Positions 22,353-26,857 of a stretch of 64,000 nucleotides of DNA are shown piece after piece; the first letter of the stretch is position 1; each line of letters opens with the position of its first letter. The notes beneath the pieces are model-generated. The model did no database searches and was not told the origin of the DNA. It saw only the letters and a list, made by a program, of their open reading frames with translations. The stretch covers positions 19,921-83,920 of the forward strand of contig CANBTT010000006.1 in the NCBI GenBank assembly GCA_947372465.1, read 5' to 3'. Origin of the DNA: Burkholderiales bacterium (GTDB lineage: Bacteria; Pseudomonadota; Gammaproteobacteria; Burkholderiales; Burkholderiaceae_C). The position numbers and the translations under genes were made by a program.

Positions 22353-25262
22353 TTACTTGGAATCGTTGGCGAAGGGCAGATTCAACTGGCTCAGATTTTT
22401 CCGAGTCTCAACCAACACCAAAGGACCTTCGTCAAGCACCACTGCGGGCGGTCTGACTCTGGGCAAACGAACAGGCGCGGGTTCGTTGGCAATGCTTTGC
22501 TGAACCTGTGCCACTTTGCTCGCGTCTGATTGGACCCATTGCAAGTTGGAGGATTCGGTCAAGGCGGTCAAGGACGCAATGGGCAAGTCATAACCAGCAA
22601 TGCTTGGCATGGAGGCCTTGGGTGCTGGTGTGGAAGACGCTGCTTGAACAGGCGCTGGCTGGACAACAGGTGCAGCGGTGGGCGCATTGGACAAAGCAGC
22701 GGGGGCCAAAGCGAGGTGTTCATTCACATCAGCTGAAATTTTTGCGGCGCTTTGTGGCGCATCAAAATAAGAGCCTTGACGAATCTCAACGGGCCTGTCG
22801 CTGCCAGCATCTTGCGCTTGTGCACTCGACTCTTGACCTTGTCCAAGTCCTTGGTCGATGGGAGCAGCATCACTGTCTCTTGGCGCTCTTTCACGACGGT
22901 CTCGGCCGTAACGGTCACGTCCCCGTCTTTCTCTGTTCTCGCTCGGTGCATTGGACGATTGAACGCCTGCGTCGCTGTCCAAAGCATTGCGGTGATCGGG
23001 ATGTTGATCGTTTGCAAGGGCTGGACTGTTGTCGTTGGCGTTGAAGCTTGTCGCTTCATCTGCATTGGGTGCGCGATCAGGTCCTCTTCGGTTGCCCCTT
23101 TCCCGACGCGAGTCACCCCGCTCACTGCGTTCACGCCTGGGTGGACGTGCTTGATCGGACTCGCTGGCGCTGCGTTCTGCGTCCCCGTTGCTTTGCGTGT
23201 CGTTGCGCGTTTGAGCATCTTGGGCGCGCGCATCTGTGGCTCGCTCACCTTGAGCTGAGCGAGGAGCGCCTCTGGCATTGCGTGATCTGTTGCCACGTGG
23301 CTCTTGGTTGCCTGTGGCAGCGTCTGCTTGTTGATCCGTGGCGCCATCTGCTTTGGGCGCTCTTTCTGCTCGATCACCTCGATCGCCGCGCTCAGCTCTA
23401 TCTGGGCGGTCTGAGCGGTCGTTTCTTCGCCCGCCACGTCGAGAGTCTCTTGGGTTTCTTGACTCCCTTGGATCGCGCTTGTCCTCTTTTTTGCTTCCAT
23501 TGGATGGGGCAGAGGCGGGTGTCTCTTTAGAGGCGTCAGAACTTGTGAACAAGGATTTGACCCAGCCAAAGAAACCACCAGAGGCTTTCGCTTGAGCGGG
23601 CTTGGGCGGCGTTTTGGCAACAGGCGCTGGTGTAGGCTTGGCTTCGTGTTGCGGAGCGGGGGCGTCTGGAAGGACGCCCTTGATCACAGGCGTTTGGCGG
23701 TTGGTGGGCTCTTGTGAGCGGCGCGTAACAGCCGTCACGTCCTCCACCTCATCGACCATTTTGTAGCTCGCCTCCATGTTGTCCAAGCGAGGATCGTCGT
23801 GCTTGAGTCGATCGAGTTTGTAGTTCGGGGTCTCTAGCGCTTTATTGGGCACGAGCAAGACGCTGATGCGTTGCTTGAGTTCAATTTTGGCGATTTCAGT
23901 GCGTTTTTCATTCAACAAGAAGGAGGCCACTTCAACGGGCACCTGTGCATGAACGGCTGCCGTGTTGTCCTTCATGGACTCTTCTTGAATGATCCTAAGG
24001 ATCTGCAAGGCCGAACTCTCTGTGTCTCTGACGTGTCCAGAGCCGCCACAGCGGGGACATGGAATCGAGGCGCCTTCAGACAATGCAGGGCGCAGACGCT
24101 GACGGCTCATCTCCATCAGTCCAAATTTACTGATCGTTCCAAATTGCACGCGTGCACGGTCTTGCCTGAGCGAGTCGCGCAGACGGTTCTCAACCTCGCG
24201 GCGGTTCCTGGATTCCTCCATGTCAATGAAGTCGATCACGATCAGGCCACCCAAGTCGCGCAGTCGCATTTGACGGGCCACCTCTTCAGCGGCCTCTAAG
24301 TTGGTGCGCGTGGCGGTCTCTTCAATGTCCCCGCCTCGAATGGCTCTTGCTGAGTTCACGTCCACCGAGACCAAGGCTTCGGTGTGGTCAATCACAATCG
24401 CGCCACCACTGGGCAGCGTCACTGTTCTTGCATAGGCCGATTCAATTTGATGCTCAATTTGAAAGCGACTGAATAGGGGGGCGTCGTCTCTGTAACGTTT
24501 GACCCGCGCTGCGTGCTCGGGCATCACGTGAGACATGAATTGGTGCGCTTGATCAAAGATGTCATCTGTATCGATCAAGATGTCGCCAATGTCACTGTTG
24601 AAGTAGTCGCGAATCGCGCGAATGACCAAACTGGACTCTTGGTAGATCAAAAAGGCGCTTTTGCCACCTTTGGATGCGCCATCAATGGCCGACCAAAGTT
24701 TGAGCAAATAATTCAAATCCCACTGCAGCTCAGGCGCAGCGCGCCCAATGCCCGCTGTTCTGGCAATGATGGACATGCCGTTGGGGTATTCCAATTGATC
24801 CATCGCCTCTTTTAGTTCAGCGCGGTCGTCGCCCTCAATGCGTCGGCTTACACCGCCGCCTCTTGGGTTGTTAGGCATCAAAACAACATATCGGCCAGCC
24901 AAGGAGATGAAGGTGGTGAGCGCAGCCCCTTTGTTGCCACGCTCCTCTTTCTCAACTTGGATCAAAAGCTCTTGGCCTTCACGGATCACATCCTGGATGC
25001 GAGCTTGGCTTGGAGAAATGTTGGCGCTGAAAAATTGTTTTGAAATCTCTTTGAAGGGCAAAAAGCCGTGGCGCTCTTCACCGTAGTCGACAAAGCAGGC
25101 CTCCAAAGAAGGCTCAACGCGGGTCACCACCGCTTTGTAGATGTTGCCCTTGCGCTGCTCGCGCCCTTCAATTTCAATTTCATAGTCAAGTAATTTTTGA
25201 CCATCTACGATCGCTAAGCGTCTTTCTTCGGCTTGCGTTGCATTGATAAGCATCCGTTTCAT
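22353..25262 (-). CDS. rne: Ribonuclease E
   Basis: The main endoribonuclease for mRNA decay and rRNA/tRNA processing, and scaffold of the RNA degradosome at the inner membrane. The 969 residues include an S1 RNA-binding domain (about 38-120, RKGNIYKAVVTRVEPSLEAC), the catalytic Asp301 in SVDVNSARA and Asp344 in VIDFIDMEE, and the zinc link CPRCGGSG (Cys402, Cys405). The C-terminal half is disordered and very rich in Arg, Asp, Ala and Gln (about 560-820), followed by a Pro/Ala-rich tail that ends LNLPFANDSK. The start MKRMLINATQAEERRLAIVD is standard. A 569-base upstream gap suggests a long regulatory leader, as known for autoregulated rne in E. coli. Confidence 0.97.
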   Translation of the reverse strand: MKRMLINATQAEERRLAIVDGQKLLDYEIEIEGREQRKGNIYKAVVTRVEPSLEACFVDYGEERHGFLPFKEISKQFFSANISPSQARIQDVIREGQELLIQVEKEERGNKGAALTTFISLAGRYVVLMPNNPRGGGVSRRIEGDDRAELKEAMDQLEYPNGMSIIARTAGIGRAAPELQWDLNYLLKLWSAIDGASKGGKSAFLIYQESSLVIRAIRDYFNSDIGDILIDTDDIFDQAHQFMSHVMPEHAARVKRYRDDAPLFSRFQIEHQIESAYARTVTLPSGGAIVIDHTEALVSVDVNSARAIRGGDIEETATRTNLEAAEEVARQMRLRDLGGLIVIDFIDMEESRNRREVENRLRDSLRQDRARVQFGTISKFGLMEMSRQRLRPALSEGASIPCPRCGGSGHVRDTESSALQILRIIQEESMKDNTAAVHAQVPVEVASFLLNEKRTEIAKIELKQRISVLLVPNKALETPNYKLDRLKHDDPRLDNMEASYKMVDEVEDVTAVTRRSQEPTNRQTPVIKGVLPDAPAPQHEAKPTPAPVAKTPPKPAQAKASGGFFGWVKSLFTSSDASKETPASAPSNGSKKEDKRDPRESRNPRDSRRGGRRNDRSDRPDRAERGDRGDRAERAPKADGATDQQADAATGNQEPRGNRSRNARGAPRSAQGERATDARAQDAQTRNDTQSNGDAERSASESDQARPPRRERSERGDSRRERGNRRGPDRAPNADEATSFNANDNSPALANDQHPDHRNALDSDAGVQSSNAPSENRERRGRDRYGRDRRERAPRDSDAAPIDQGLGQGQESSAQAQDAGSDRPVEIRQGSYFDAPQSAAKISADVNEHLALAPAALSNAPTAAPVVQPAPVQAASSTPAPKASMPSIAGYDLPIASLTALTESSNLQWVQSDASKVAQVQQSIANEPAPVRLPRVRPPAVVLDEGPLVLVETRKNLSQLNLPFANDSK

Positions 25263-25831
25263 TGATGCGTTCCTTTTCTTGTATAACTAAACATCACAGG
25301 CCCATGACGGACCAACGATGCCTGAAACGACGCCAAGAACGAAAGGAATTGCCGCTAAAATTCGCCGCTGGAGAAACCGTTTTAAGGTCGCTGGCGAAAG
25401 CTGGGCACGAGGATAGGAGCGAGTCGCAAGGGAGTGGGCAACGCTTTTGTAAAGCGGGCCATCCGAGTGTGCAAAGACAAAGGGGTGTTGCGTGCGAACC
25501 CAAGCACTGTTGTGGGGAAAAACCCAAACAGGAGGAGGGGCAACAAGAAAAACACCATCAGCATCTTAAATTTCTTCTCTCGCTATGATCCGTTTGACTT
25601 GGGGTTTTGGGAGATCCAAGATCAACAAAACTCCCCAAGTCAAACTTTGTATATTCCGTATCAAAGTTCAATGGACGTCGGCTCAACCGATGGGGGGCGC
25701 ACCCCTCACACTTCATAGGAGGTGAGTCTGTGTCGCGGGGCCTGTCGGGGCATCGACCGCCAGCTTGGGGTATTTACGTGATCTAATTGACCAAATGACA
25801 AAACAAATCAAGTACTTGGAATCCAACGCTG
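25263..25831. other. Long divergent leader region between rne and rluC
   Basis: 569 bases with no supported gene; a + strand frame at 25434-25718 has no recognisable features. The outstanding element is a 13-bp perfect inverted repeat at 25592-25645. The span is probably the 5' leader and promoters of rne (leftward) and rluC (rightward). In E. coli the rne leader mediates feedback by RNase E, so structured RNA here would fit. Confidence 0.6.
25592..25645. repeat. 13-bp perfect inverted repeat (large hairpin) upstream of rne
   Basis: Left arm GTTTGACTTGGGG (25592-25604) and right arm CCCCAAGTCAAAC (25633-25645) are exact complements. A further 5-bp inner pairing, TTTTG/CAAAA, lies past a 2-base bulge. 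There is no T-run on either side, so it is not a plain terminator. Confidence 0.9.
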
Positions 25832-26857
25832 GTGAATAACATTATACGACCCTTGAGGCCTGAGAGTCCAGTTCAGGCCAAACAAATCGAAGTGGATGAC
25901 GAGTCCACCGGCCAAAGGCTGGATAATTTTTTAATGCGCCACCTCAAAGGTGTGCCAAAAACACACATTTATCGCATTATTCGCTCGGGCGAGGTGCGCG
26001 TGAACAAGGGCCGCGCTTCGGCCGATAGCCGGGTCAAGGGGGGCGATCTCGTCAGGATTCCCCCTTTGAGGACCTCTGAGCAAGCGCAACTCAAGGAGGA
26101 ACTTGCCTGTGCTGGGGGCATTCCAGCTCGGGAATTCCCCGTTTTGATGGAAGATGAGCACTTGATGGCCATCGACAAGCCCGCCGGAGTGGCCGTGCAC
26201 GGGGGCAGTGGCGTGAGTTTTGGCGTGATTGAGCAACTGAGACAAGCCAGACCTTTGCTCAAATCCTTGGAGTTGGTCCACCGAATTGATCGTGAAACCT
26301 CGGGCATTTTGTTGGTGGCCAAGAAAAGAAGTGCTTTAAAGCACTTGCAAGACCAGTTCAGAGAGCGCGAGACGGGAAAGACTTATTTGACCATGGTTCA
26401 AGGCCAATGGCCCTCCAACCGCAAAGTCATTGACCTGCCGCTCAAGCGCTACTTGCTCAGCAACGGCACCCAAGAGGGCGAGCGACGTGTGCGGGTGGCG
26501 CAAAAAGACGACCCTTCTGGTTTGAGGGCCATCACTCTCGTGAAGGTGGCCCGCTTGGTGGGGGGCTACTCTTTGTTGGAGGTCACCATCAAGACGGGCA
26601 GAACCCATCAAATTCGTGTTCATTTGGCCAGCTTGGGTTACCCCATTCTTGGGGATGAGAAATACGGCGACTACGACCAAAACAAAGCCTTGCAAAAACT
26701 CGGTCTCAAGCGCATGTTCTTGCACGCGTGGCAGTTGAAGTTTTTTCACCCCAACATCGCTAAGCCCGTGACGCTTGAATGCCCCTTGCCCCAAGAGTTG
26801 CAAGACTTCATTGGCAGGCAGCAAGGCTTGGGGGCGGCGGGCGAAGGTCCGCAATAA
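25832..26857 (+). CDS. rluC: 23S rRNA pseudouridine synthase, RluC type
   Basis: Converts specific uridines of 23S rRNA to pseudouridine (955, 2504 and 2580 in E. coli). The 341 residues have an N-terminal S4 RNA-binding domain (about 27-80, STGQRLDNFLMRHLKGVPKT) and a RluA-type catalytic domain with Asp153 in VHRIDRETSG. Later motifs are TGRTHQIRVHLASLGYPILG and LHAWQLKF. The GTG at 25832 gives the family-like start; no ATG fits as well. RluC following rne divergently is the common order in Burkholderiales and other proteobacteria. A HAD-hydrolase gene follows 19 bases downstream. Confidence 0.95.
   Translation: MNNIIRPLRPESPVQAKQIEVDDESTGQRLDNFLMRHLKGVPKTHIYRIIRSGEVRVNKGRASADSRVKGGDLVRIPPLRTSEQAQLKEELACAGGIPAREFPVLMEDEHLMAIDKPAGVAVHGGSGVSFGVIEQLRQARPLLKSLELVHRIDRETSGILLVAKKRSALKHLQDQFRERETGKTYLTMVQGQWPSNRKVIDLPLKRYLLSNGTQEGERRVRVAQKDDPSGLRAITLVKVARLVGGYSLLEVTIKTGRTHQIRVHLASLGYPILGDEKYGDYDQNKALQKLGLKRMFLHAWQLKFFHPNIAKPVTLECPLPQELQDFIGRQQGLGAAGEGPQ

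Follow-up and report, generated by a model that had tools for sequence, protein, structure and literature searches.

The rne-rluC gap and its inverted repeat

The window, meaning the whole 64,000-nucleotide stretch of Limnohabitans (Comamonadaceae) DNA analysed here, contains rne, which starts at 25262 on the minus strand, and a divergent rluC-like gene, which starts at 25832 on the plus strand, with a gap of 569 nt between them. The genes and the elements that define the rne leader are as follows.

22353..25262, minus strand: rne, encoding RNase E of 969 aa (Pfam RNase_E_G)
25832..26857, plus strand: divergent gene for a rluC-like pseudouridine synthase (Pfam PseudoU_synth_2 and S4)
25271..25275, minus strand: Shine-Dalgarno sequence AAGGA of rne (from the sequence; conserved in the 64-leader alignment A2)
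25841..25846, minus strand: -10 box TATAAT of the putative rne promoter, with a start expected near 25834 (family-wide conserved position)
25592..25645, minus strand: hairpin P, a 13-bp stem with inner stems, predicted to be an arm of a leader domain (folding, covariation, model R1)

The inverted repeat consists of two 13-nt arms (25592-25604 and 25633-25645) that are 100% complementary and 28 nt apart, the nearer of them being 330 nt from the rne start. These values agree with the original prediction, which had described a perfect 13-bp inverted repeat with an inner 5-bp pairing about 330 bases upstream of rne in a 569-base gap. The fold of the rne strand comprises the 13-bp stem, an inner 5-bp stem and a 4-bp stem at -26.8 kcal/mol (z = -3.6), and none of 200 shuffled sequences was equally stable. 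No further exact copy of the 13-mer arm occurs in the 3.05-Mb genome beyond the two arms themselves, by which a mobile or REP-like element was rejected.

The TATAAT box (25846-25841, minus strand) is located approximately 195 nt upstream of the hairpin, is found in the same relative place throughout the Comamonadaceae, and is the sole conserved -10 box. Because the hairpin lies downstream of this box, it should be transcribed, probably as a part of the rne leader. The box (25832-25846 region) also falls just inside the annotated rluC start. Any rluC promoter would therefore lie inside the rne leader DNA, and the divergent rne and rluC transcripts would overlap, unless rluC in fact begins further inside.

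A hairpin in a transcribed leader could itself stop RNA polymerase, acting as a terminator or attenuator that yields a short leader RNA. Such RNAs have precedents: a study on Bordetella pertussis (PMC3110155) describes RNAs of 250-300 nt, in rne orientation, from the gap upstream of rne and suggests that an rne 5'UTR element is present there, and premature termination is frequent in the rne leader of Synechocystis (PMC10989929). However, no U-tract follows the hairpin on the rne strand, where the conserved GGAUCAAAGCGAG is found instead, and a terminator scan reports none at the hairpin. The missing T-run is in agreement with the earlier statement that the repeat is no simple terminator, and termination by the hairpin appears quite improbable. 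Rho-dependent attenuation could possibly operate elsewhere in the leader.

Conservation and covariation of the hairpin

The comparison drew on leaders of 29 same-genus loci and of 80 named loci, mostly of Comamonadaceae. In 78 Comamonadaceae leaders, a hairpin occupies this position, and 76 of these 78, a set selected for folding, have z < -2. Together with the covariation described below, this recurrence places the hairpin far beyond chance. The perfect 13 bp are peculiar to the species of the window; the 91%-identical relatives L002 and L003 keep the stem with other bases and with interruptions. The flanks of the hairpin, GAUACGGAAUACCC and, on the 3' side, GGAUCAAAGCGAG, are conserved, and the letters of the stem differ between relatives.

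Pairing was examined on the alignment A1, in which 50 sequences were aligned with MAFFT without regard to structure. From it, RNAalifold recovers the stem unaided, with double changes at 8 of 8 pairs. When ten stem pairs were counted on A1, paired cells amounted to 77.3% (53.0±1.6 in shuffled alignments) and compensatory cells to 141 (53 in shuffled alignments), and all ten pairs show double changes. The covariation score was 0.591, compared to 0.215±0.020 for shuffles and at most 0.278 for slid versions of the stem. Another 28 loci, found with the model R1 that was derived from this comparison, gave 0.549 against 0.244±0.026, a value that is mildly biased because the model prefers pairing. 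At the level of sequence comparison, covariation identifies the inverted repeat as a conserved RNA structure of the rne leader. Compensatory changes across relatives, which the original prediction had proposed to look for, are thus present; it had named a transcription start closer to rne than the repeat, together with an unconserved stem, as evidence against itself, and what is found is a conserved stem with the only conserved -10 box upstream of it.

The strand of the structure is indicated by the non-Watson-Crick positions of stems that were found strand-neutrally. G·U occurs 27 times and A·C 5 times, which points to an RNA of the rne strand, although the sequences are related and a p-value is only indicative. 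The two strands show no difference in overall folding energy (p = 0.29), and it is solely the G·U/A·C count that separates them.

These data also bear on the second reading of the original prediction, an operator for the divergent promoters, here taken as a DNA palindrome at which a repressor would control rne and rluC. A perfect 13-bp inverted repeat in a divergent gap is what such an operator would look like, and any rluC promoter must lie within this DNA. In an operator, however, the arm sequence should be kept, whereas here it is almost wholly different between relatives and the pairing is retained, with double changes in all ten pairs and a strand-specific excess of G·U over A·C. Moreover, it is the flanks that are conserved, and these take part in long-range pairing; the site is about 195 bp downstream of the rne -10 box. 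The operator reading is disfavoured by these observations and is very improbable.

The model R1 matches the window at 25578-25664 with 51.7 bits. It finds exactly one match per genome in 109 of 251 family genomes (69 of 141 genera), and rne and rluC are both present at each of the 35 family loci for which this could be checked. Among 300 Burkholderiales genomes, 7 of the 9 from the same family are matched, as are, weakly, 2 of the 291 others; the latter two matches are both on loci without rne and are not convincing. The element belongs to the rne locus. No R1 match was obtained under strict filters in 142 of the 251 family genomes, so that a part of the family may lack the element or have a version that is too diverged.

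Other conserved segments were seen in rne leaders. The first ~75 nt of the rne leader (25840-25765, minus strand; TTCACCAGCG..AAGTnCTTGATTT..ATTAGAnCACG) show strong conservation across the Comamonadaceae. They may form an RNA element in their own right, with a relationship to a motif of other Burkholderiales families. In those families (L168, L174, L175, L178, L181, L187 and others), a different conserved RNA-like motif is present upstream of rne, namely GGTTAA-TCGCT-CACC-n-GT-AGCGA-TRGTAA-nnGATTT-GCGCGCTC-AAGCAC. Its stem TCGCT/AGCGA becomes TCACT/AGTGA in L168 and L174, and the motif has no Rfam match. In many leaders outside the Comamonadaceae (L173, L175, L178, L181, L187), a possible small hairpin, CCCGTGTGnnGAGCGCGGGAGA, holds the rne Shine-Dalgarno sequence.

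Long-range helices and the enclosed reading frame

The conserved flanks of the hairpin are strands of long-range helices, and the hairpin can therefore be placed as one arm of a multi-branched domain that encloses a short open reading frame (sORF). This larger domain and its sORF were absent from the original prediction. The features concerned are the following.

25653..25681, minus strand: 5' strand of helix A, CCGACGUCCAUUGAACUUUGAUACGGAAU, directly 5' of the hairpin (covariation; mean pair probability 0.91, unconstrained)
25328..25349, minus strand: 3' strand of helix A, AUUCCUUUCGUUCUUGGCGUCG, between the sORF stop and rne (covariation, pair probability)
25579..25591, minus strand: 5' strand of the probable helix B, GGAUCAUAGCGAG, adjoining the hairpin and overlapping the sORF ribosome-binding region (conserved complementarity; mean pair probability 0.98)
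25411..25423, minus strand: 3' strand of the probable helix B, CUCGCUCCUAUCC, in the last third of the sORF (conserved complementarity, pair probability)
25382..25564, minus strand: leader sORF of 60 codons, MLMVFFLLPLLLFGFFPTTVLG...LRLAPILVPSFRQRP, with a hydrophobic N-terminus (open frame, weak purifying selection)
25299..25313, minus strand: hairpin T, 5 pairs, ~25 nt upstream of the rne Shine-Dalgarno sequence (covariation; pair probability 1.0)

In the window, helix A pairs 25681-25653 (CCGACG..GAAC..GGAAU) with 25328-25349 (AUUCC..GUUC..CGUCG), a partner strand approximately 310 nt downstream; the helix closes the domain over approximately 350 nt. On the alignment A2 of 64 leaders, 85.3% of its cells are paired (76.6±0.6 in shuffles), compensatory cells number 108 (41 in shuffles), and the covariation score is 0.273, compared to 0.135±0.008 for shuffles and at most 0.069 for slid versions. 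GAAC:GUUC of the window is replaced by GAAU:AUUC in L005, by GCGAAC:GUUCGC in L045 and by CCAGAAAAC:GUUUUCUGG in L010, and the innermost part, GGAAU:AUUCC, is almost invariant. The covariation shows helix A to be a real pairing by comparative criteria. The same kind of evidence establishes hairpin T (GGCATCGTTGG-TCC..GGA-CC), which is conserved family-wide and shows compensatory changes in relatives at all 5 pairs.

For helix B, the two strands are GGAU....GCGAG in the 3' flank of the hairpin and CUCGC....AUCC within the final third of the sORF. They are complementary in 84.9% of cells, compared to about 40% for slid versions, yet covariation does not rise above that of shuffles, and helix B is for this reason considered probable only. 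Unconstrained folding of single leaders places a part of helix A at a probability >0.5 in 53 of 64, and the count for helix B is likewise 53 of 64. Run on whole leaders, RNAalifold recovers the hairpin and helix B and misses helix A; the latter was first spotted by eye, and its covariation was then counted. Hydrogenophaga-type leaders (L039, L053), in which helix B is unformed and the sORF is short, likewise keep the hairpin and helix A. In the resulting model, the domain would be a multi-way junction of helix A, the hairpin, helix B and smaller stems, with the sORF enclosed.

The two helices also account for a resemblance in the flanks. ACGGA on both sides of the hairpin resembles the ANGGA core of a CsrA/RsmA binding site, and most sequences have ACGGAA and (A)CGGAU on the two sides of the stem; both GGA motifs are, however, explained by helices A and B. 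In addition, CsrA (PF02599) is absent from all 23 Limnohabitans genomes searched, which are that of the window (G000) and 22 relatives, by a search that finds it in E. coli and others as a control. This absence refutes CsrA control in Limnohabitans, unless a diverged CsrA escaped the search, and leaves a CsrA/RsmA site with hardly any likelihood.

In nearly all hairpin-bearing Comamonadaceae leaders, a reading frame, in most cases of ~60 codons, is open from just past the hairpin to a point ~95-185 nt before rne. When the frame is fixed by its 3' motif, it is open in 61 of 64 leaders, compared to 8 and 32 of 64 for the other frames, and in 22 lower-GC leaders it is open in all 22, compared to 3 and 4. 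Sequence comparison thus shows the frame to be conserved open. The ratio of nonsynonymous to synonymous changes is 0.63, against 0.84 and 0.90 in the shifted frames, indicating weak constraint, and the sORF has no match in Pfam or NCBIfam. The nucleotides of the 3' motif LAPIHAPTP are also very conserved, which fits a double role in helix B. In some leaders (L012, L013, L039), the sORF is cut to ~20 codons with the 3' end retained.

Such a frame raises the alternative of a leader-peptide switch, in which sORF translation, gated by helix B, would control rne by way of refolding, Rho access or the stability of the leader, without RNase E being the ligand. The frame open in 61 of 64 leaders, with a fixed stop position, would be expected of such a switch, as would the complementarity, seen in almost every species, between the ribosome-binding region and the 3' end of the sORF, and the retention of that end in the shortened sORFs (L012, L013). 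On the other hand, the Hydrogenophaga-type leaders (L039, L053) dispense with helix B and have a short sORF while keeping the hairpin and helix A, the peptide is weakly conserved (0.63 versus 0.84-0.90 in other frames), and no regulatory codon run was noticed in it. Control of rne by the peptide frame without RNase E as ligand is therefore rather unlikely.

Proposed function and comparison with known rne leaders

We consider that the ~570-nt rne leader of Comamonadaceae contains a conserved cis-acting RNA domain of which the inverted repeat forms one arm, and that this domain probably serves RNase E homeostasis. The best mechanism we infer is a feedback control of rne that would work like that of E. 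coli rne5, without similarity to an Rfam model. In the proposed scheme, helix A would close the domain over ~350 nt, within which would lie the hairpin, helix B with the looped ~60-codon sORF, and smaller stems, and hairpin T and the rne ribosome-binding site would follow 3' of the domain closed by helix A. RNase E would bind or cut this folded leader of its own mRNA, such that leader cleavage and decay of the rne mRNA rise with RNase E activity, and translation of the sORF would probably open helix B and so set the exposure of the leader. That RNase E is the ligand, which way the control runs and what part the sORF plays are all inferences in this scheme.

A more elaborate possibility, which we regard as speculative and would not expect to hold, is that of a translation-gated RNase E homeostat. 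The last codons of the sORF would pair with its own ribosome-binding site, and each round of translation would refold the domain, exposing or hiding sites for the destruction of rne mRNA by RNase E. If this were true, the translational state of the cell and RNase E activity would both bear on RNase E synthesis.

Beyond E. coli, where it is established, little is known of RNase E control through the enzyme's own leader. The present element adds a structure that is backed by covariation and occurs in a large family of environmental bacteria. Its helices are defined exactly enough to be disrupted and rebuilt, and it includes a conserved sORF with complementarity between its start region and its end. 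This makes the repeated evolution of rne self-control a directly testable question.

Among the known elements, rne5 is the main point of reference. In E. coli, RNase E binds a leader hairpin of rne5, and feedback via the structured rne leader is established (PMC3997798). The Rfam models of rne5 (RF00040) and rne-II (RF01756) gave no match in the window, either at E<=10 or at the gathering threshold, and none in seven related loci at E<=1; as a positive control, the E. coli rne5 was found by the same kind of scan with 260 bits. Membership in rne5 or rne-II was accordingly rejected, and function by homology is not available. The original prediction had suggested an independently evolved RNase E sensor; the lack of an rne5 model match is consistent with the independent origin. 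No description of a Comamonadaceae rne leader element was found in Rfam 15 or in the open-access papers searched.

The rne5 element of Enterobacteria (hp1-hp3 in E. coli) and the Comamonadaceae element have in common a long structured 5' leader directly upstream of rne, a cis position, a divergent rluC, and a long-range helix enclosing internal hairpins. They differ in that no shared sequence is seen and that the Comamonadaceae layout is three-way, with the hairpin, helix B and the sORF. Furthermore, feedback by RNase E has been shown for rne5 (PMC3997798), whereas for the Comamonadaceae element it is proposed. The rne-II RNA, found by comparative genomics (PMC2864571), is likewise a lineage-specific conserved RNA upstream of rne, but belongs to a different order, the Pseudomonadales. 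BprA of B. pertussis comes from the same order, Burkholderiales, and is an RNA in rne orientation from a 522-nt gap upstream of rne; in the part of the source concerned (PMC3110155), it is available for comparison without a described structure, and R1 has no convincing match outside the family of the window among the 300 Burkholderiales genomes. Outside the enterobacteria, the rne 5' UTR of Synechocystis is similar in that rne appears to be controlled through its own long leader, by a feedback that has been suggested (PMC10989929). The Synechocystis leader uses a U-rich RNase E site together with premature termination, whereas the Comamonadaceae leader has a folded domain with a sORF. Collectively, the Comamonadaceae element, for which no earlier description was found, appears to be a lineage-specific cis element of rne, distinguished from these systems by an unusual built-in sORF.
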